From Erythrobacter sp. (GTDB taxonomy: Bacteria; Pseudomonadota; Alphaproteobacteria; Sphingomonadales; Sphingomonadaceae), in the NCBI RefSeq assembly GCF_023653175.1, contig NZ_JAMNXL010000005.1, positions 1 to 53,243 of the forward strand: a DNA stretch of 53,243 nt, written 5' to 3'. Made by a program: the position numbers and the translations under genes. A model generated the notes under the pieces. The model made no database searches and was not told where the DNA came from. It was given only the letters and a program-made list of their open reading frames with translations. Below, one piece after another: positions 27,718-40,664 of this stretch. Positions within the stretch are counted from its first letter, which is position 1, and the number at the start of each line of letters is the position of its first letter.

Positions 27718-28301
27718 GTCAGCAGCACCCCTTCCTCGCGCAAGGCCTCCAGCAAAGGCAGCAGCGGCATCCCGAGGACGGTGAACTGGTCGCCCTCTAT
27801 CTCGGAGAACAGCTGCACCCCCGGCCCCTCGATCCGGAAGGCGCCGACGGTGTGGCCGATCGCGGGCCACTCCATATCGAGATAGGCGGCGATGAAGTCC
27901 TCCGAGAGGTCGCGCACATGGAGGCGTGCGAGGCTGGCGTGCGACCATTGGCACCCGCCGTCTTTCACCAGCGCGGCGGCGGAGTGCAGCTCCATCACCT
28001 TGCCGGAGAAGAACCGCAGATGCTCCCCCGCTTCCTCACGGTTCCCCGGCTTGTCGAAGCGGCGATTGGCGCAGACCACCAGTGAGTCCGACCCCAGCAC
28101 CAGCGCCCCCGGATGGAGCGCCGCCACGGCTGCGGCCTTGGCCACCGCCAAAGCCTCGGCCACCTCGGCGGGCGCGGCGCCCGCGAGGCCCGCTTCGACC
28201 GCACGTTCGTCGATATCGGAGGGGATGCTGTCATAGGCGACCCCCGCAGCATCGAGCATCGCCCGGCGCGAGGCCGATTTGCTGGCGAGAATCAACGTCA
28301 T
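27714..28301 (-). CDS. maf: Maf-family nucleoside triphosphate pyrophosphatase
   Basis: A 195-residue house-cleaning pyrophosphatase that hydrolyses non-canonical nucleoside triphosphates. Family blocks LILASKSASRRAML at the N-terminus, PSDIDERAV, and VLGSDSLVV are present. The nucleotide preference between Maf subfamilies is not resolved. Overlaps ppsR and aroE by 4 nt each. Confidence 0.9.
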   Translation of the reverse strand: MTLILASKSASRRAMLDAAGVAYDSIPSDIDERAVEAGLAGAAPAEVAEALAVAKAAAVAALHPGALVLGSDSLVVCANRRFDKPGNREEAGEHLRFFSGKVMELHSAAALVKDGGCQWSHASLARLHVRDLSEDFIAAYLDMEWPAIGHTVGAFRIEGPGVQLFSEIEGDQFTVLGMPLLPLLEALREEGVLLT

Positions 28302-29143
28302 ATCGGCTTCCCCGTCCCGCCCTCGCTCGCCGGCTTGCGGTCGCGCTCCTGCACGAGCCGGATGATCGCCGCCGCGGTCTCCTCGATCGAGCGGCGGGTA
28401 ACGTCGATCACCGGCCAGCCATTGTCGCCGAACATCCGCCGCGCGAACTGCAGCTCGGCCTTGACCTTGTCATTGTCGACATAAGCCGTCTCGGTCGCCT
28501 CGTTGAGCGAGAGCAGCCGGTTGCGGCGGATCTGGATCAACCGCTCTGGCGAGGTCGTCAGCCCCACCACCAGCGGGTGCCGCAGCCGGTAGAGCGTTTG
28601 CGGAGGCGGGCTCTCCACCACCAGCGGGATATTCGCCACCTTGTAGCCGCGGTTGGCGAGATAGATGCTCGTCGGGGTCTTCGAGGAGCGCGACACGCCG
28701 ACCAGGACGATATCGGCCTGCTCCCACTCCTCGTGCGCAAGGCCATCGTCATGCGCGATAGTGTACTGGATCGCGTCGACGCGCTTGAAATAGCTCTCGT
28801 CCATCATGTGCTGGCGGCCCGGGCGGCCATGCGCCTCCTGCCCGAGCTGCGCCTCGAGCGCCGCCGTGACCTGATCGAGCACCGGCACGGCGGGCAGGCC
28901 AAGGTGGCGGCAATGCTCTTCGAGGCGCTTCCTCGTCTCCGGGTTCACCAGCGTGTAGAGCACCAGCCCGGGATGCGCGGCGAGATCGGGGACGATGCGG
29001 TCCATGTGCTGGAGCGAGCGGACCATCGGCCAGAAATGGCGGTTCACGGCAGGGTTGTCGAACTGGGCAAGCGCCGCCTTGGCGATCATTTCCAGCGTCT
29101 CCCCGGTCGAATCCGAAACGAGGTGGAGATTGAGTCGGTTCAT
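28298..29143 (-). CDS. ppsR: PEP synthase / pyruvate phosphate dikinase regulatory protein (DUF299)
   Basis: A bifunctional serine/threonine kinase and phosphorylase that controls PEP-forming enzymes. The 281 residues have HLVSDSTGETLE at the start and a P-loop-like GVSRSSKTPTS near residue 155. The first gene of a tight operon, homologous to RP001, which marks one side of the replication origin in Rickettsia and Caulobacter. Start chosen at MNRLNLHLVSD (29143); 31 further codons are open but unlike the family. Confidence 0.92.
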   Translation of the reverse strand: MNRLNLHLVSDSTGETLEMIAKAALAQFDNPAVNRHFWPMVRSLQHMDRIVPDLAAHPGLVLYTLVNPETRKRLEEHCRHLGLPAVPVLDQVTAALEAQLGQEAHGRPGRQHMMDESYFKRVDAIQYTIAHDDGLAHEEWEQADIVLVGVSRSSKTPTSIYLANRGYKVANIPLVVESPPPQTLYRLRHPLVVGLTTSPERLIQIRRNRLLSLNEATETAYVDNDKVKAELQFARRMFGDNGWPVIDVTRRSIEETAAAIIRLVQERDRKPASEGGTGKPI

Positions 29144-29459
29144 GCCATCGGGGCCCTGTGGACAGATCGCCGCATAAACCACGGGAGGCGCGGGCGGACA
29201 AGCTGGGGACGGATTTTCATGCCCGCTAACGGCCATTCGCCAAGCCTATTTGCGCACACGGGACAAGTTTTGTCGACAGGCTGGGAAGAGTGGGGATAAA
29301 GCTGGCTTGACGTCCAATCCGTGCGGATTCGATGGGGGCAGGGACTAGGGGCTTAAGCGGGGGGTAACCGGGCAAGAACCGGTAATTCCCGCTTTCCACA
29401 GGGCCAACATACTCCATCATCCTCTTTATAAATTGAATTGAATTGTTCTAAGGAGCCCT
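29144..29459. other. oriC: Probable chromosomal replication origin (oriC)
   Basis: A 316-bp gene-free interval between divergent ppsR (RP001) and hemE, the position of oriC in Caulobacter crescentus and Rickettsia. DnaA-box-like 9-mers are TGGGGATAA (29291-29299, 8 of 9), TGTGGACAG (29157-29165), CTTTCCACA (29392-29400) and TTGCGCACA (29250-29258), the last three about 7 of 9. A CtrA-like TTAA-N7-GTAAC is at 29353-29368. An AT-rich tract with three AATTG repeats (29425-29450) adjoins hemE and could be the unwinding region and hemE promoter. No perfect DnaA box was found. Confidence 0.65.
29353..29368 (+). promoter_or_regulatory. CtrA-like site in the origin region
   Basis: TTAA-gcggggg-GTAAC differs at one position from TTAA-N7-TTAAC. 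In Caulobacter, CtrA binds oriC to block initiation. Three GANTC (CcrM-type) sites lie at 29109, 29132 and 29326. Confidence 0.4.
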
Positions 29460-30476
29460 ATGCCCGGTCCGCTTCTCGATACGCTCAAAGGTGTCCGCCA
29501 GGACGTCGCTCCCGTCTGGCTCATGCGTCAGGCCGGGCGCTATCTGCCTGAATACCGGGAACTTCGGGCTGACAAGGGCGGGTTCCTCGAGCTGGTTTAC
29601 GACAGCGAGGCGGCGGCCGAGATCACGGTGCAGCCGATCCGGCGCTTCGGTTTCGACGGTGCGATCCTGTTCTCCGATATCCTTATCGTGCCGCACGCGA
29701 TGGGGCAGGGGCTGACCTTTGCCGCGGGCGAGGGGCCGCACCTTGCGCCGACGCTGCTCGAGGTGGAGCTGGACAGTTTCACCCCTGCCTTCGAGCGGTT
29801 CGAGCCGGTTTACGAGACCGTGCGCCTCACCCGCCAGCAGATCGGCCCCGCAGTGACCATGCTCGGCTTTGCGGGGAGCCCCTGGACGGTAGCGACCTAC
29901 ATGATCGCGGGCGAAGGCTCCAAGGATCAGGGCCCCGCGCGCCTCCTCGCCTATCGCGATCCGGCGCGGATGCAGGCGATCGTCGATGCCATCGTCGAGG
30001 TCTCAGTCACCTACCTGCGCGGCCAGATCGATGCCGGCGCCGAGGCAGTGCAGCTGTTCGACAGCTGGGCGGGCAGCCTTGCTCCCGACCAATTCGAGAA
30101 GTGGGTGATCGCCCCGAATGCGGCGATCACCGCGAAGCTCAAGGAATCGCACCCCGATACTCCGGTAATCGGCTTCCCCAAGGGCGCGGGTGCCAAGCTC
30201 CCCGCCTATGCCCGCGAGACCGGAGTGGACGCGGTTGGCCTCGACGAGACGCTCGATCCGGTCTGGGCGCACCAGAGCCTGCCTGAGGGCATGCCGGTGC
30301 AGGGCAATTTCGATCCGCTCCTGCTCGAGGCTGGTGGGCCTGCCGTAGCGGCGCGCGTCAAGACCATCATCGCCGCCTTCGAGGACCGCCCGCACATTTT
30401 CAACCTCGGCCACGGGATCGGGCAGTTCACGCCGATCGCGCATGTCGAGGAATTGCTCGCGGCGCTGAGGGGCTAG
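29460..30476 (+). CDS. hemE: Uroporphyrinogen decarboxylase
   Basis: Converts uroporphyrinogen III to coproporphyrinogen III in heme synthesis. 338 residues with the signature PVWLMRQAGRYLPEYREL at the start and GFAGSPWTVATYMIAG in the middle; the active-site Asp is in FSDILIVPHAMG. AAGGAG lies 4 nt before the ATG. It flanks the putative origin and is followed after 4 nt by hemJ, linking two heme steps. Confidence 0.95.
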   Translation: MPGPLLDTLKGVRQDVAPVWLMRQAGRYLPEYRELRADKGGFLELVYDSEAAAEITVQPIRRFGFDGAILFSDILIVPHAMGQGLTFAAGEGPHLAPTLLEVELDSFTPAFERFEPVYETVRLTRQQIGPAVTMLGFAGSPWTVATYMIAGEGSKDQGPARLLAYRDPARMQAIVDAIVEVSVTYLRGQIDAGAEAVQLFDSWAGSLAPDQFEKWVIAPNAAITAKLKESHPDTPVIGFPKGAGAKLPAYARETGVDAVGLDETLDPVWAHQSLPEGMPVQGNFDPLLLEAGGPAVAARVKTIIAAFEDRPHIFNLGHGIGQFTPIAHVEELLAALRG

Positions 30477-32438: not shown

Positions 32439-32831
32439 GTGCTCAGCCAGTATCTCTACATCAGCACCGCGCCGACCCTGCCGCGCGAGGAGGTCGATGC
32501 CATCCTCGCAGCCAGCGCGCGTAACAATCCGGCGCGCGGCATCACCGGCCTGCTGCTGTTCAACGGCCGCAACTTCCTGCAATTGCTCGAGGGAGATGAG
32601 GGTGAGGTCGCCGCGCTGATGGAGACCATCACCGCTGACCCGCGCCACGCGGGCGTCTCGGTGCTCGACCGCCGCGGAATCGAAGCGCGCGCTTGCCCCG
32701 ACTGGGCGATGAAGCGCGTGATGATCGCCGAGAGCATCGAGTCCCGCCGCGAGATGCTCGAGCGCGATCTGCCCGCGGGGCTCGACCCCGAGGTGCGCAA
32801 GATGATCGTCAACTTCGCGGTGCTGAACTAA
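32439..32831 (+). CDS. BLUF-domain blue-light photoreceptor
   Basis: A 130-residue protein made of a single FAD-binding BLUF domain plus a short helical tail. The flavin-contact residues are present: Tyr7 (YLYIS), Asn30 (RNNPARGITG) and Gln48 (FLQLLEGD), with CPDWAMKRV near residue 88 as the Trp/Met loop. It has no output domain, so it must signal by protein contact. GTG start at 32439, since the family begins there. It follows rho on the same strand by 45 nt. Confidence 0.92.
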   Translation: MLSQYLYISTAPTLPREEVDAILAASARNNPARGITGLLLFNGRNFLQLLEGDEGEVAALMETITADPRHAGVSVLDRRGIEARACPDWAMKRVMIAESIESRREMLERDLPAGLDPEVRKMIVNFAVLN

Positions 32832-33866: not shown

Positions 33867-34561
33867 CCCAGAGCGTCCGCGAAGAACGCCGCCGTGCGCC
33901 CGTCGGCGAGGTTGGCGGCCTCCTCGTGGCGGCGCTTGCCGTGTTCGGTGGCGAAGCCGTGGTCGAGGCCTTCGTAATCGTGCAGCGTCACCTTGGGGTG
34001 ATCGCCAAGCCCCTCATGCATTGCCGCCTGTGTTTCACGTGGAACAAAGCCGTCATTGGTGGGGATGTGCAGCATCAGCGGGTGGGCGATCGCGTGCTTC
34101 TCGTGGAGCAAGCCGTCGATGCCGACGCCGTAATAGCCGACGCTCGCGTCGATATCGGTGCGCGCTGCGGTCATGTAGGCGAGCCGCCCACCGAGGCAGT
34201 AGCCGACGCAGCCGACCTTCGCGATGCCGAGGGTGCGGCGAATGTGGTGGATGGTCGCCTCGATGTCGCGGATGCCGGCGTCCTGGTCGAACTCGCCGAA
34301 CAGGCCGAGGGCGCGCTGGAATTCGGGCTCCACGTCCGGGTCGAGCTCGATGCCCGGCTCGATCCGCCAGAACAGATCGGGCGCCACGGCGAGGTAGCCC
34401 TCGGCCGCCAGCTTGTCGCACTTCTGGCGGATGCCGGGGTTCACCCCGAAGATCTCCTGGATGACGATGATCGCAGCCCGCGGTTCGCCCGAGGGCTTGG
34501 CCACATAGGCGCTGAAGCTCGCGTCACCTGAAAGGGTGGGGATGGTTTCGTTGAAGCGCAT
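33863..34561 (-). CDS. Dienelactone hydrolase-family protein
   Basis: A 232-residue alpha/beta hydrolase with a cysteine nucleophile. Catalytic Cys122 is in GYCLGG, Asp170 is in NDGFVP, His201 in LDHGF, and Glu36 in QEIFG. It likely hydrolyses lactones or esters; the true substrate is unknown because no other aromatic-degradation genes are nearby. A parS site lies inside the gene and encodes FVPRET right after the catalytic Asp. Confidence 0.88.
   Translation of the reverse strand: MRFNETIPTLSGDASFSAYVAKPSGEPRAAIIVIQEIFGVNPGIRQKCDKLAAEGYLAVAPDLFWRIEPGIELDPDVEPEFQRALGLFGEFDQDAGIRDIEATIHHIRRTLGIAKVGCVGYCLGGRLAYMTAARTDIDASVGYYGVGIDGLLHEKHAIAHPLMLHIPTNDGFVPRETQAAMHEGLGDHPKVTLHDYEGLDHGFATEHGKRRHEEAANLADGRTAAFFADALG
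34031..34046. other. parS: parS site 1 (variant) in the dienelactone hydrolase gene
   Basis: TGTTTCACGTGGAACA, the reverse complement of the known parS form TGTTCCACGTGAAACA. It is the left-most site of the cluster, about 4.6 kb from the putative origin. Confidence 0.85.
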
Positions 34562-34659
34562 GGGGGTCTCTCCTTCGGGGGTGGCTCACGGTCTATCTCT
34601 TGCCTTGTCAGCGTGCCAAGCCCAAATGAAACAGGGATGACGAGAGGAGGGCTAGCCCC

Positions 34660-34929
34660 ATGAAGATCACCATCGAAATCGACTGCACCCCCGAAGAGGC
34701 GCGCAGCTTCATGGGCCTGCCCGATGTGAGCGCGGCCAACAATGTCTATGTCGAGAACCTCACCAAGGCGATGCAGGGCGTCTCGAGCCCCGATCAGCTC
34801 CAGCAATATGCCAGCGCGCTGGCGCCGATGGGGCAGATGGGGATGAAGCTGTTCCAGAATTTCGTGGAGAGCGGGATGAAGGCGGCCGCGGGCGGGGTTC
34901 CGGGAGCGTCGAAGAAGTCCTCCGACTAA
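34660..34929 (+). CDS. DUF6489 family small protein
   Basis: An 89-residue protein (MKITIEIDCTPEEARSFMGL ... ) of the DUF6489 family. It has a beta-strand start, then helical middle (LTKAMQGVSSPDQLQQYA) and a Gly/Ala/Lys-rich tail. Function unknown. It lies 4 nt before mnmE, and its GAGGAGGG ribosome-binding site precedes the ATG. Confidence 0.75.
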   Translation: MKITIEIDCTPEEARSFMGLPDVSAANNVYVENLTKAMQGVSSPDQLQQYASALAPMGQMGMKLFQNFVESGMKAAAGGVPGASKKSSD

Positions 34930-34933
34930 GGCT

Positions 34934-36220
34934 GTGAGTTCTGCCGAGACGATCTTCGCGCTCTCGAGCGGTGCGCCGCCGGCGGGCGTGGGCGTGATCC
35001 GCGTTTCCGGCCCGGCGGCGCGGGCGGCTTTGCTGGCGCTGGCAGGCCGTGTGCCTGAGCCGCGCCGCGCGTCGCTGGCGCGGCTGCGTGATGCTCAGGG
35101 GGCATTGCTCGACGAGGCGTTGGTGCTGTGGTTCGCGGGGCCGGCGACCGCCACCGGAGAGGATCTCGCTGAATTCCACTGTCACGGGGGCCGTGCGGTG
35201 GTTGCGGCGGTAGAGGGGGCGCTCGCTTCGCTTCGCGGGATAAGGCGTGCCGAACCGGGGGAGTTCACCCGCCGCGCCTTCGCCAATGGTCGGATCGATT
35301 TGGCCGAGGCCGAGGGGCTCGCCGATCTGCTCTCTGCCGAGACCGAATTGCAGCGCGCCGCCGCGCTCGCCAATGCTGGCGGGGCGCTGTCGCGGGAGGT
35401 TGAGGGATGGCGCGAGCGGGTGCTTTCGCTGTCCGCCGAGGTGGAGGGCGTGCTCGACTTCTCGGACGAGGAAGACTCCGCTGATCTCCCCGAATGTTTT
35501 ACGTGGAACATTGGCGCGCTGGCCGAGGAACTGGCCGAGTGGCTGACCCGCCCACGCTCGGAGCGGCTGGGGGAGGGGTTCCGGGTGGTGCTCGCCGGGC
35601 CGCCCAACGCCGGCAAGTCCACTTTGTTCAACGCGCTGGTGGAGAGCGAGGCGGCGATCACTTCGCCCATCGCCGGCACGACGCGCGACGTGATCGAGCG
35701 GGCGGTGGCGATCAGCGGCGTGCCTTTCACTTTCGTCGATACCGCCGGACTAAGGGAGGGCGAGGCCGCCGACTCCATCGAGGCGATCGGCATCGACCGC
35801 GCCCGGAGCGCGCTGGCCCGCGCCGACGCTGTCTTGTGGCTGGGGGCCGAGGGCGAGGGGCCGGAAGGCGCCTGGGAGATCGCCGCGCAGTCAGACCGCG
35901 AGGGATACGGCGAGAAGCCGGGCGCCCGCTTCACGCTCTCGGCCATGACGGGCGAGGGGGTCGCGGCGCTCAAGACCGCGCTGGTCGAAGCCGCGCGCGC
36001 GGCGCTCCCCAAACCGGGTGAGGCCGCGCTCAATGCCCGCCAGCACGCTCGCCTCGCCGAAGCAGCCGAAGCCCTGCAATCGGCGCAGGGCCTCGCCGAT
36101 CCGCTGTTGGTCGCCGAGGAACTTCGCCGCGTCCGCCTCGCCTTCGATCGTTTGGTCGGGCGGGCAACCACCGAGGACATGCTCGACACGCTGTTTGGGC
36201 GGTTCTGCATCGGGAAGTAG
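34934..36220 (+). CDS. mnmE: tRNA uridine-5-carboxymethylaminomethyl modification GTPase
   Basis: With MnmG, installs the (c)mnm5 group on wobble U34. The 428 residues comprise an N-terminal formyl-THF-binding domain (SAETIFALSSGAPPAGVGVIRVSG), a helical domain, a Ras-like G domain (GPPNAGKSTL near residue 225; DTAGLREGE) and the FCIGK C-terminus with the catalytic cysteine. GTG start (34934) 4 nt after the DUF6489 gene. A variant parS encodes CFTWNI at residues 188-193. Confidence 0.94.
   Translation: MSSAETIFALSSGAPPAGVGVIRVSGPAARAALLALAGRVPEPRRASLARLRDAQGALLDEALVLWFAGPATATGEDLAEFHCHGGRAVVAAVEGALASLRGIRRAEPGEFTRRAFANGRIDLAEAEGLADLLSAETELQRAAALANAGGALSREVEGWRERVLSLSAEVEGVLDFSDEEDSADLPECFTWNIGALAEELAEWLTRPRSERLGEGFRVVLAGPPNAGKSTLFNALVESEAAITSPIAGTTRDVIERAVAISGVPFTFVDTAGLREGEAADSIEAIGIDRARSALARADAVLWLGAEGEGPEGAWEIAAQSDREGYGEKPGARFTLSAMTGEGVAALKTALVEAARAALPKPGEAALNARQHARLAEAAEALQSAQGLADPLLVAEELRRVRLAFDRLVGRATTEDMLDTLFGRFCIGK
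35495..35510. other. parS: parS site 2 (one mismatch) inside mnmE
   Basis: TGTTTTACGTGGAACA. It differs at the sixth base from the known variant and is the weakest of the eight sites. Confidence 0.55.
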
Positions 36221-36240
36221 GGCGCGCCGCTCGGCGAAAA

Positions 36241-36256
36241 TGTTTCACGTGAAACA
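36241..36256. other. parS: parS site 3 (perfect) between mnmE and mnmG
   Basis: TGTTTCACGTGAAACA, perfect 16-bp palindrome, 39 bp from the next site. Confidence 0.95.
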
Positions 36257-36279
36257 TTGGCGGAGATTCCCGGCCCGAA

Positions 36280-36295
36280 TGTTTCACGTGAAACA
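36280..36295. other. parS: parS site 4 (perfect) between mnmE and mnmG
   Basis: TGTTTCACGTGAAACA, perfect 16-bp palindrome. Sites 3 and 4 are the only intergenic ones, so they may be the primary loading pair. Confidence 0.95.
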
Positions 36296-36370
36296 TTTTG
36301 GCTGAGGTGAAAGCACGCGGGGGGTGAAACATCTTTGACGATTGCGCCCCCGCGCCCTATCTGCCCGCCC

Positions 36371-38236
36371 ATGCAATCCTTCGACGTCCTCGTCATCGGC
36401 GGCGGTCACGCCGGGGTGGAGGCTGCCTGCGCGGCGGCGCGAATGGGCGCGCGCACGGCGCTGGTGAGCTTCGACCTCGCCGCCATCGGTGCGATGAGCT
36501 GCAATCCGGCGATCGGAGGCCTCGGCAAGGGACACCTCGTGCGCGAGGTCGACGCGCTTGACGGCGTGCTGGGCCGCGCGGCGGATGCTGGCGCAATCCA
36601 CTACCGGATGCTCAACCGCTCCAAGGGTAGCGCCGTCTGGGGCCCGCGCGTGCAGGCCGACCGGGTGCGCTTCAAGGCGGCGGTGCAGGCGATGGTGCGC
36701 GCGCAGGCCAACCTGACGCTGGTACAGGGCGAGGCTGCCGCGCTGGTGCTGAAGGGCGGGGTGGTCGCGGGGCTGGAGCTGGCCGACGGCACAATGTTTC
36801 ACGTGAAACATTTGGTGCTGTGCACCGGCACCTTCCTCGGCGGCATCCTGTTCCGCGGTGAGGAACGCTACGAGGGCGGGCGGATTGGCGAGAACGCCGC
36901 GCACCGCCTCGCGCAGCAGTTGCGCGGAGCTGACCTCCCCATGGCGCGCCTCAAGACCGGCACCCCGCCGCGTCTGGATGGCCGCACCATCGATTGGGCG
37001 GTGCTCGAGGAGCAGCCCTCCGATGGCGAGGCCTGGACCATGTCGCCGCTCACGCCCCGGCGGATCAACCCGCAGGTGTTCTGCGCGATCACCCGCACCA
37101 CCCAGGCCGGCCACGACGCGATCCGCGCCAATCTCCACCGATCGCCGCTTTTCTCGGGGGCGATTGCTGCGGCGGGACCGCGCTATTGCCCGTCGATCGA
37201 GGACAAGATCCACCGCTTCGGCGACCGGGAAGGGCATCAGGTGTTCCTCGAGCCCGAGGGGTTGGATACGCACATGGTCTATCCCAACGGCATCAGCACC
37301 TCGCTCCCGGTCGATGTGCAGGAGGAGGTGGTGCGCACCATGCCGGGCTGCGAGCGTGCGGTGATCGTGCAACCGGGCTATGCGGTGGAGTATGACCACA
37401 TCGACCCGCGCGCGCTGACCCCCGACTTGCAGCTCCGGGCGATCCCCGGTCTCTATTGCGCAGGCCAGATCAACGGGACGACCGGCTACGAGGAGGCCGC
37501 CGCGCAGGGGCTGGTAGCAGGGCTCGAGGCGGCTGCGGCGGTGCTCGGCAAGCAAGCGCCCCGGTTCGACCGCGCCAATTCCTATATCGCGGTAATGGTC
37601 GACGACCTGACCTTGCAGGGCGTCTCCGAGCCTTACCGGATGCTCACCGCCCGCGCCGAATACCGGCTGCGGCTGCGCGCCAACAATGCCGCGACGCGGC
37701 TGACCGGGCTCGGGATCGAAGCGGGGTGCATCGGCGAGGAGCGCCGCGCCTGGTGGGAACGCCGTGAAGCGACGCGCGAAATGTTTCACGTGAAACATTC
37801 GCAGAGGGTGCATGCGCGTGAACTCGCCGATCTCGGGCTGGCAGTGCGGCGCGATCAGGGCGAGAAGACTCTCGCCGAATGGTTGCGCTATGACGGGGTG
37901 ACACCCGAGGCTCTTGCGCCATGGCTCGGCGAGATCACCGCCCTCGACCCGCTGCTCGCCGAGGAGATGGCGGAGGATGCGGCCTATGCGCCCTACCTCG
38001 CCCGGCAGGACGCCGAGCTGCGCGATCTGCGCGCGAGCGAGGCCCTGCCGCTGCCCTCGGACTTCCCCTATGCCGAGGTGCCCGGCCTCTCCAACGAGAT
38101 GGTCGAGCGCCTGAGCAAGGCCGCGCCAGGGACGCTGGCGGCTGCCGGGCGCGTGCCCGGGGTGACACCGGCGGCGCTTTCCGCATTGTTGGTGCATGCG
38201 CGTCGCCGCCTCGTATCGGGGTCGTTCGCAGCGTGA
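36371..38236 (+). CDS. mnmG: tRNA uridine-5-carboxymethylaminomethyl modification enzyme, FAD subunit
   Basis: FAD-dependent partner of MnmE, 621 residues. FAD loop [19 protein letters not shown] at the N-terminus, [22 protein letters not shown], and [22 protein letters not shown]. Start at ATG 36371; a longer TTG-starting frame has no family match. Two parS sites lie inside and each encodes MFHVKH (residues 142-147 and 471-476). It overlaps rsmG by 4 nt. Confidence 0.95.
36795..36810. other. parS: parS site 5 (perfect) inside mnmG
   Basis: TGTTTCACGTGAAACA; read in frame as MFHVKH in the segment just before the conserved [11 protein letters not shown]. Confidence 0.95.
37782..37797. other. 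parS: parS site 6 (perfect) inside mnmG
   Basis: TGTTTCACGTGAAACA; read in frame as MFHVKH in the helical C-terminal region. Confidence 0.95.
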
Positions 38237-38859
38237 TCACCAGTGAAACCGAGGCGCGGGCCTATGTTGCCGAGCTGACCGACGCGGCGGGGATGGCGCG
38301 GCTCGAGGCCTTCGCCGCGCTGGTGCTCGAGGAGAACCAGCGCCAGAACCTCATCGCCAAGGCGACCGAACCGCATCTGTGGCAGAGGCACATCGCAGAC
38401 TCCGCGCAGCTCATCGAAAATGTTTCACGTGAAACATTGGGGCCGAATGCGGGCGGGCCCTGGCTCGATCTCGGCAGCGGCCCCGGCTTTCCCGGCCTCG
38501 TGATCGCCGCGCTCTGCCCCAACATGCCCGTGGTGCTGGTCGAATCCCGCGCGCGGCGGGTGGAGTTCCTCGAGCGCGCCATCGCAGTGCTCGACCTCGC
38601 CAAATGCCGCGTTGAGGGGCAGCGGCTCGAGCGCGTCGCGCCGTTCCCGGCCCGCGCCATTTCGGCACGCGCCTTCGCGCCTTTCCCCAGACTTCTCGAC
38701 CTATCCGCACCCTTCTCCACAAGGGCCACGCGCTACGTGTTGCCCAAGGGACGTTCGGCGGCGCAGGAATTGGCGGCGCTCAAGCCTTCGATTCGGGCAA
38801 TGTTTCACGTGAAACATTCCTTGACCGATCCCGAGGCGGGGATCATCGTGAAGGCGTGA
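38233..38859 (+). CDS. rsmG: 16S rRNA (guanine527-N7)-methyltransferase
   Basis: Methylates G527 of 16S rRNA; loss gives low-level streptomycin resistance in other bacteria. 208 residues with the SAM-binding block [16 protein letters not shown] near residue 77 and [11 protein letters not shown] near the end. GTG start (38233) overlaps mnmG by 4 nt (GTGA). Two perfect parS sites lie within it. Confidence 0.93.
38421..38436. other. parS: parS site 7 (perfect) inside rsmG
   Basis: TGTTTCACGTGAAACA; read in a different frame from the mnmG copies, giving NVSRETL (residues 63-69). Confidence 0.95.
38801..38816. other. parS: parS site 8 (perfect) near the end of rsmG
   Basis: TGTTTCACGTGAAACA; read as MFHVKH (residues 190-195). 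It is the right-most site, 101 bp before parA. Confidence 0.95.
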
Positions 38860-38916
38860 GGCGCGAACCCTGTGCGGATTCATCATGAATCGGCGCGCGT
38901 AAGGACAGGAAACACC

Positions 38917-39693
38917 ATGCTGACCATCGCGATTGCCAATCAGAAGGGCGGAGTGGGCAAGACCACGACCGCGATCAACATCGCCACCGCCATGGCGGCG
39001 ACCGGATGGCGCACTCTGCTGATCGACCTCGATCCGCAGGGCAACGCCTCGACCGGCCTCGGAGTCGACGCTGCCGACCGCGGTATTTCGAGCTATGACC
39101 TGCTGGTCGACGAGGTTGCGCTGGCCTCGGCGATCGTGCCGACCGCGATCCCGCGCCTCGACATCATCCCGGCGACGGTCGATCTGTCGGGGGCCGAGGT
39201 CGAGCTGGTTGCGGTCGAGGGCCGCACGCACCGGCTCCACCGCGCGCTCGCCGGCTATACCGGGCACGACATCTGCTTCATCGACTGCCCGCCCTCGCTG
39301 GGCCTGCTGACGCTCAACGCACTGTGCGCCGCCAACACCCTGCTGGTGCCGCTGCAATGCGAGTTCTTCGCCCTGGAGGGGCTGAGCCAGCTGCTCCAGA
39401 CGGTCGATCAGGTGCAGCAGCGCTTCAACCCCGAGCTGGGCATCATCGGCGTCGCGCTCACCATGTATGACCGGCGCAACCGGCTGACCGATCAGGTCTC
39501 GGATGACGTGCGCGATTGCCTCGGCAAGCTGGTGTTCGAAACGGTGATCCCGCGCAACGTCCGCCTGTCTGAGGCGCCGAGCCACGGGCTCCCTGCGCTG
39601 ATCTATGACCAGCATTGCATCGGCAGCCGCGCCTATATGGCGCTGGCGCGCGAGCTGATCGGGCGCTTTCCCGCAGAAAGACAAGCGGCATGA
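38917..39693 (+). CDS. parA: Chromosome-partitioning ATPase ParA
   Basis: Walker-type ATPase that moves ParB-parS complexes along the nucleoid. 258 residues with the deviant Walker A KGGVGKTTT (residues ~10-18), Walker A' IDLDPQGNAST and Walker B FIDCPPSLGLL. Start at ATG 38917 with AAGGACAGG upstream; a longer open frame is unlike the family. Overlaps parB by 4 nt (ATGA). Confidence 0.95.
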   Translation: MLTIAIANQKGGVGKTTTAINIATAMAATGWRTLLIDLDPQGNASTGLGVDAADRGISSYDLLVDEVALASAIVPTAIPRLDIIPATVDLSGAEVELVAVEGRTHRLHRALAGYTGHDICFIDCPPSLGLLTLNALCAANTLLVPLQCEFFALEGLSQLLQTVDQVQQRFNPELGIIGVALTMYDRRNRLTDQVSDDVRDCLGKLVFETVIPRNVRLSEAPSHGLPALIYDQHCIGSRAYMALARELIGRFPAERQAA

Positions 39694-40664
39694 CCGACAA
39701 TATTGATCAAGCATCTGAAATTCTTGCAATTTCGCGGGCAGGAACGGATAAGCCCCGGCGCCTCGGCAAGGGGCTTGGCGCGCTGCTCGGCGAAACCCGC
39801 CGCGAAGAGCCGCTGGTGCGCCGCGAGGAGATCGCCACCGCCTCCTCCGAGGTTCCGCCGCCGGACGTCTCGCCGCTCAGGATGCTGCCCCTGGCGAGCA
39901 TCAAGCCGCTGCCCGGCAACCCGCGCAAATATTTCGACGAGACCGCGCTCGAGGAGCTGGCGGCGTCGATCGCCACCCGCGGGGTGATCCAGCCGATCAT
40001 CGTTCGCCCCCATCCGGCAGGCGACGGCTACCAGCTGGTCGCGGGCGAGCGGCGCTGGCGCGCGGCGCAGAAGGCGCGGCTGCACGAGATCCCGGCGCTG
40101 GTGCGCGCTCTGTCAGACCGCGAGGTCATGGCGCTTGCGCTGATCGAGAACCTGCAGCGCGAGGACCTCAATCCGGTCGAGGAAGCGCGCGCCTATCATC
40201 GCCTCGCCGAGGAAGAGGGGATGATCCAGGTCGACATCGCCAAGATGGTCGAAAAGTCGCGCAGCCATGTCGCCAACATGATGCGGCTGGTGACGCTGCC
40301 CGACCAGGTGCTCGACCTCATTCAGGAGGGCAAGCTCACCATGGGCCACGCCCGCGCGCTGATCGGGCGCGACGATGCGCGCGAGCTGGCTGCGATCGCG
40401 GTCGCCGAAGGGCTGTCGGTGCGCGATATCGAGACGCTCACCAAGAAGCCGGCCAAGCGCCCCGAGGCGCCCTCCGAACCGGCCTATCTCAGCACCGAGA
40501 GCGCCGATATCGTCGCGGTGCAACAGCATCTCGAGGAGTTTCTCGGCCTGACGGTCAAGATCAAGCCCGAGAGCGATCCGCGCAAGGGCACGATCACGAT
40601 CCGCTACACCACGCTCGACCAGCTCGACCTGCTGTGCCAGCGGCTGACCGGCGGAGAGATTTAA
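39690..40664 (+). CDS. parB: Chromosome-partitioning protein ParB
   Basis: CTPase that loads at parS and spreads along DNA. 324 residues: N-terminal RLGKGLGALLG (ParA-interaction region), CTP-binding GERRWRAAQKA, LIENLQREDLNPVEEA, HTH IAKMVEKSRSHVANMMRL that reads parS, and a C-terminal dimerisation domain (DLLCQRLTG). Its targets, eight sites, lie just upstream. Confidence 0.95.
   Translation: MTDNIDQASEILAISRAGTDKPRRLGKGLGALLGETRREEPLVRREEIATASSEVPPPDVSPLRMLPLASIKPLPGNPRKYFDETALEELAASIATRGVIQPIIVRPHPAGDGYQLVAGERRWRAAQKARLHEIPALVRALSDREVMALALIENLQREDLNPVEEARAYHRLAEEEGMIQVDIAKMVEKSRSHVANMMRLVTLPDQVLDLIQEGKLTMGHARALIGRDDARELAAIAVAEGLSVRDIETLTKKPAKRPEAPSEPAYLSTESADIVAVQQHLEEFLGLTVKIKPESDPRKGTITIRYTTLDQLDLLCQRLTGGEI

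Follow-up and report, generated by a model that had tools for sequence, protein, structure and literature searches.

A predicted chromosomal replication origin between ppsR and hemE in an Erythrobacter-like sphingomonad

Replication origins next to hemE

The chromosomal origin of the Sphingomonadaceae has been reported near hemE, and the predicted oriC of Sphingopyxis granuli TFA and of other members of the family (DoriC/Ori-Finder) lies beside this gene within a conserved gene organization, with DnaA boxes that are likewise conserved and a candidate unwinding element (PMC4741004). In Caulobacter, the origin is known for its weak G- and W-boxes (PMC4468827), transcription of hemE within the origin is described as important to replication and as repressible by CtrA (PMC8959179), and the methylase CcrM is not required for the control of initiation, with normal DNA content in the absence of ccrM (PMC3973325). 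Loss of ctrA in Sphingomonas melonis is described as being without negative effect on growth or viability (PMC8116508). As to the methylated sites themselves, YGAKTCG has been described as the extended GcrA motif (PMC7987155), and a GANTC located between the -10 and -35 elements marks a timed promoter class in Caulobacter (PMC4287350).

The locus analyzed here, a 316-bp gap between the divergent ppsR and hemE genes (29144–29459), is very likely, as judged from its sequence features, the oriC of a sphingomonad. It resembles the S. granuli TFA-type origin in its position beside hemE, its gene organization, its DnaA boxes and its candidate unwinding element; it differs in belonging to another species and in its GANTC sites and GAKTCG promoter-like element, neither of which is mentioned in the passages of that report that describe the TFA origin (PMC4741004). 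With Caulobacter crescentus Cori it shares hemE at the origin, weak DnaA boxes and an AT-rich region (PMC4468827, PMC8959179), and Cori is likewise described as having hemE transcription tied to the origin (PMC8959179) and several GANTC motifs (PMC3973325). Unlike Cori, described with five CtrA boxes, it displays one imperfect, unconserved CtrA-like site and a conserved GAKTCG element. The predicted origin is ordinary for its group, and placement on the hemE side has already been predicted for relatives.

The locus and its gene neighborhood

The window, that is, the whole stretch of 53,243 nucleotides that was analyzed, is the entire contig C38, one of the 289 that make up a 3.70-Mb draft genome. 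The nearest relatives of its hemE are mainly Erythrobacter and Porphyrobacter records, and the host is an Erythrobacter-like sphingomonad. The gene-free divergent gap described in the initial annotation was recovered exactly, between the start of ppsR at 29143 on the minus strand and the start of hemE at 29460 on the plus strand. The former gene (28298–29143, minus strand; NF003742, 337.6 bits against a cut-off of 225), there called RP001, belongs to the PPDK/PEP synthase regulator family, and the latter (29460–30476, plus strand; TIGR01464, 373.7 bits against a cut-off of 302.95) encodes uroporphyrinogen decarboxylase. The minus-strand genes leading up to the gap are dnaQ, coaE, aroE (assigned by eye), a Maf-like gene that scores below its cut-offs, and ppsR, and the plus-strand genes leading away from it are hemE, a hemJ-like gene (104.5 bits against a cut-off of 138.05), rho, mnmE, mnmG and parAB. 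An open reading frame after rho (32439–32831) resembles, by eye, a BLUF-type photosensor protein.

A parS-like cluster (34031–38816) stands just ahead of parAB and comprises six perfect copies of TGTTTCACGTGAAACA and two copies with one or two mismatches, eight sites against 0.05 expected. The parA gene (38872–39693, plus strand; Pfam AAA_31) is followed by parB (about 39687–40664, plus strand; ParB_N, HTH_ParB and ParB_C), so that the parS-like sites and parAB are located 5–11 kb from the gap; parAB has been suggested as an anchor to place ori (PMC8116508). By their coordinates, two of the parS-like sites fall between mnmE and mnmG, and the others fall inside open reading frames, including mnmE and mnmG.

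Conservation of the gap

For comparison, the best 80 of at least 594 confirmed hemE stretches in one genome collection were combined with the window, giving 81 loci. In 67 of the 81, a gap separates hemE from a divergently oriented ppsR homologue; of these 67, 51, the window included, were classed as sphingomonad-like by record titles and identity order, and 16 as other alphaproteobacterial; this search found no ppsR in the remaining 14 of the 81. The gap measures 291–436 bp in the 51 sphingomonad-like loci, the ends in the relatives being extrapolated from tblastn and unannotated, and its architecture persists across them. In the 17 closest loci (the window and 16 relatives), the nearly invariant elements comprise, from ppsR to hemE, (i) the ppsR-side DnaA box, (ii) GCATAAACCACGGGAG, (iii) CTTGAC, (iv) one GANTC, and (v) GGTAATTCCC, with the hemE-side box and GGGCCAAC after it; variation is greater in the two central boxes than in these stretches. 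One record, L045, bears the title Bacillus sp. 2B10, but its ppsR-hemE region is typical of sphingomonads (hemE identity 64%), and for this reason its label looks wrong or its assembly contaminated.

DnaA boxes and the AT-rich tract

A search for 9-mers with at most two mismatches to TTATCCACA returned exactly four sites in the gap, in line with the four DnaA-box-like 9-mers of seven to eight matches first noted there. The ppsR-side box, CTGTCCACA (29157–29165, minus strand, 7/9), adjoins ppsR and is aligned with at least seven matches in 41 of 48 rows, which are those with an ungapped 9-mer after three of the 51 were dropped as gapped. The two central boxes, TTGTCGACA (29270–29278, plus strand, 7/9) and TTATCCCCA (29291–29299, minus strand, 8/9), each reach this level in 27/51 rows. 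The hemE-side box, CTTTCCACA (29392–29400, plus strand, 7/9), adjoins the AT-rich tract, forms the core of the conserved block GGTAATTCCCGCTTTCCACAGGGCCAAC (29381–29408), and is aligned at this level in 28 of the 30 ungapped rows, 21 of the 51 having been dropped as gapped. Four or more boxes per 316-bp stretch occur in a single run in the 53-kb window, at the gap, the mean being 0.32 per stretch; of 5000 first-order Markov sequences with the composition of the gap, 0.28% reach four. A perfect DnaA box is found neither in the gap nor in the 53-kb window, an absence that the initial annotation had considered notable. It is in fact ordinary, because 36 of the 51 sphingomonad-like gaps, this one included, are without one; perfect copies of TTATCCACA occur in 15/51 of these gaps and in 5/16 of the other alphaproteobacterial gaps.

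The AATTG tract reported beside hemE is equally real. With 6 G or C among its 30 nucleotides, the stretch 29422–29451, a candidate DNA-unwinding element, and two 30-mers that overlap it have the lowest GC content of any 30-mer in the 53-kb window, and in 45 of the 51 gaps the AT-richest 30-mer starts 30–85 nt before the hemE end of the gap. The two palindromes of the initial annotation also exist, TGTCGACA at 29271 and AATCCG-TG-CGGATT at 29316, and neither is kept beyond near relatives in the aligned gaps. The former occurs three times in the 53-kb window; the latter, the right half of which overlaps the conserved GATTC, looks incidental because it is kept in the nearest relatives only.

Other signals were sought in the same gaps. 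Five in-phase DnaA-trio triplets can be read by eye from 29416; the published trio pattern of BUS (DnaA box, spacer, DnaA-trios), defined as at least three xAx on the melted strand no more than 16 nt from the box, passes in 3 of the 36 testable gaps (of 51), against 9% in shuffles, and shows no enrichment in this sample. No IHF site with at most one mismatch is present in the gap of the window. Over the 51 gaps, 17 carry such sites, 23 in all, where 10.1 would be expected and 20 runs gave 18 at most.

Taken with its surroundings, the gap is, in our judgement, very likely an oriC: its four weak boxes would serve as DnaA binding sites, and DnaA would open the duplex at the AT-rich tract beside hemE. 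Binding would be cooperative, as at the weak Caulobacter boxes, the box at 29392–29400 would direct melting of 29422–29451, and forks would leave the origin both ways.

GC skew and the position of the origin

A cumulative GC-skew minimum had been proposed as a check of the origin. A pooled switch at hemE is found in five relatives; inside the window, the cumulative minimum lies near 20 kb, not 29 kb, which we read as local noise. The skew evidence is that of the relatives, the genome under study being in 289 contigs; the five were selected among 149 family genomes on the criterion of long or single contigs, with sampling at 15–20 kb per stretch. With the origin set at hemE, the right-minus-left GC skew is positive in all five (0.012–0.031), with permutation p values of 0.0005–0.016 per relative, which are optimistic since 5-kb pieces were shuffled and their correlation ignored. 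The best positions of the single relatives are +0.06, -0.04, -0.08, 0.00 and -0.01 of the chromosome, and the pooled best position is -0.01 (from -0.02 to 0 the score stays within 95% of its maximum); the pooled switch at hemE is located to about 1–2% of the chromosome. Coding-strand bias displays no clear pattern in the three relatives in which it was assessed.

The skew scan advances by 1% of the chromosome per step (about 28 kb) and single genomes scatter by up to 8%, so that the skew cannot single out the gap within its neighborhood, and this coarseness would accommodate an origin nearby but outside the gap, for instance nearer to parS/parAB. Within the 53-kb window, however, no other 316-bp stretch holds four boxes and none is as AT-rich, so that we regard such a displaced origin as extremely improbable. 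Nearly as improbable is that the gap represents a conserved divergent promoter region of ppsR and hemE and nothing else, with DnaA regulating transcription there and replication starting elsewhere: promoter-like elements toward both genes would explain part of the conservation, but the pooled skew of the five relatives points to the gap locus, parS and parAB are adjacent, the box cluster and the AT-rich tract are in keeping with an origin, and the published origin placement is beside hemE (PMC4741004). The proposal of the initial annotation that the gap is oriC is supported by synteny, box clustering, the conserved gap, the pooled skew switch at hemE and the nearby parS/parAB.

CtrA-like sites

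Control by CtrA through several conserved TTAA-N7-TTAA boxes was considered and rejected: the gap contains one imperfect site, TTAA-N7-GTAA (29353–29367, one mismatch), shared at these columns by 0 of 16 close relatives. Across the 51 gaps, CtrA-like sites with at most one mismatch occur in 11, against 3.7 expected (maximum 7 in 20 runs); we read this excess as an effect of composition, because the sites occupy scattered columns and 7 of the 11 lie in the AT-rich stretch nearest hemE. CtrA control in single relatives is possible.

Promoter-like elements and GcrA/CcrM

Toward hemE, a -35-like TTGACG (29307–29312, plus strand) would belong to the hemE promoter, each TTGAC column being kept in 26–28 of 28 Erythrobacter-side rows, and is followed by GATTCG (29326–29331, plus strand), a GANTC in the form GAKTCG. 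The latter is aligned as GAKTCG, 14 bp after TTGAC and across a spacer of variable sequence, in 28/28 Erythrobacter-side loci, the window included; these comprise L001–L026, L033 and L078, and the unselected count is 26/26, since L033 and L078 were added after the pattern had already been noticed in them. In the 23 other sphingomonad-like loci, GAKTCG is absent from the same columns (0/23). The base preceding GAKTCG is Y in 4, G in 17 and A in 7 of the 28, and is not Y in the window; no conserved -10 after GAKTCG could be seen by eye in the aligned gaps.

At the scale of genomes, TTGAC-N13-15-GAKTCG has one match in the 3.70-Mb genome, the one described here, against four for a reversed-pattern control, and TTGAC-N13-14-GAKTCG has 391 matches in 137 of 149 family genomes, where its reversed control has 310. 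A genome-wide promoter class defined by this pattern was accordingly rejected, and since the pattern is hardly in excess, it is noteworthy solely by its place before hemE. Among the matches listed (150, in 52 genomes), 33 of the 52 genomes have one on the hemE strand, 125–138 bp ahead of the gene, where 0.008 would be expected; the remaining 117 of the listed matches are at other places, and 19 of the 52 genomes, including G128, one of those sampled for skew, have none of their listed matches before hemE.

To judge by its sequence, TTGAC-N14-GAKTCG is similar to a hemE promoter of the GcrA/CcrM type lying within the origin, and the genome encodes a predicted GcrA (PF07750, on contig C215) and a candidate CcrM-type methylase (RAMA, PF18755, in a 426-aa open reading frame on contig C82). 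As in the GcrA/CcrM-dependent promoters described in PMC7987155, GAKTCG is invariant (on the Erythrobacter side) and is flanked by a -35-like TTGAC and, on its other side, the expected -10; unlike the YGAKTCG promoters of that report, it has the Y in 4/28 only and sits inside a predicted origin. The element would be read by sigma-70 RNA polymerase together with GcrA once CcrM has methylated the GANTC, and transcription across the origin would therefore follow the methylation state. Toward ppsR, a putative promoter is formed by TTGTCC (29196–29201), a 17-bp spacer and TTTATG (29173–29178), on the minus strand (29173–29201). The nearly invariant GCATAAACCACGGGAG (29172–29187 in the window) is read as part of it, and since the ppsR-side DnaA box lies just downstream of GCATAAACCACGGGAG, DnaA might also act on ppsR.

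GANTC sites in the gap

GANTC, the CcrM methylation site, on which the initial annotation was silent, occurs 216 times in the 51 sphingomonad-like gaps (12.56/kb), against a Markov expectation of 68 on average and 90 at most (200 runs), whereas three control pentamers of the same shape occur 26, 31 and 32 times. In the same loci, its density is 2.14/kb in 212 other intergenic gaps and 1.90/kb in coding sequence, and in the 16 other alphaproteobacterial gaps it is 7.34/kb, 51 sites against 32 expected (maximum 47). These enrichment figures are not to be taken as probabilities, because related loci are not independent. Each of the 51 gaps holds at least one GANTC, and the gap of the window holds the fewest, one, at 29326. 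A second GANTC, inside AACAGACTC adjoining the AT-rich tract, is present in 20/51 sphingomonad-like and 5/16 other gaps, this 9-mer occurring nowhere else in 1.21 Mb of these loci; the window is without it because it has AACATACTC in place of AACAGACTC at 29406–29414.

GANTC density was also considered as a unique landmark of the origin and discarded, since the gap is enriched and yet often not the local maximum: among the 48 sphingomonad-like loci that span 9 kb or more, it is the single GANTC-densest stretch of its length in 17, with 9 ties, and among 12 other loci in 2, with 1 tie. A separate GANTC-dense stretch was observed about 5–5.6 kb to the ppsR side of hemE in nine loci (L019, L020, L033, L036, L040, L041, L042, L047 and L055), at about 4.4–4.9 kb in their own coordinates.

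Whether these sites bear on replication is evenly balanced in our estimate against the alternative that the gap is oriC and that GAKTCG and GANTC serve the timing of hemE or general CcrM marking, without effect on replication. GcrA and CcrM are transcription regulators, GAKTCG is positioned like a promoter element, and deletion of ccrM is described as leaving initiation control normal in Caulobacter (PMC3973325), all of which suit that alternative; against it, GANTC is enriched throughout the gap in 51 loci, beyond the promoter, and transcription of hemE within the Caulobacter origin has been called important for replication (PMC8959179). More tentatively, sphingomonad origins might run on a methylation clock instead of CtrA, with a GcrA/CcrM-read hemE promoter and the GANTC sites tying transcription of the origin, and by way of that its firing, to full or half methylation, a counterpart, by different parts, of the enterobacterial Dam/SeqA system. 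In a term search of the open-licence PMC, no paper was found that describes, for sphingomonad origins, GANTC enrichment or a hemE promoter of the GcrA type; this does not prove novelty. The GAKTCG element and the GANTC load may be new.

Implications for the family

The analysis places a predicted oriC for an Erythrobacter-like draft genome and, for relatives on the Erythrobacter side, offers an anchor for origin finding in the form of TTGAC-N13-14-GAKTCG about 130 bp before hemE together with the boxes and the AT-rich tract. If the methylation element acts on replication, the long-standing question of initiation control by CcrM marks would become testable in a group in which loss of ctrA is described, for S. 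melonis, as harmless (PMC8116508).
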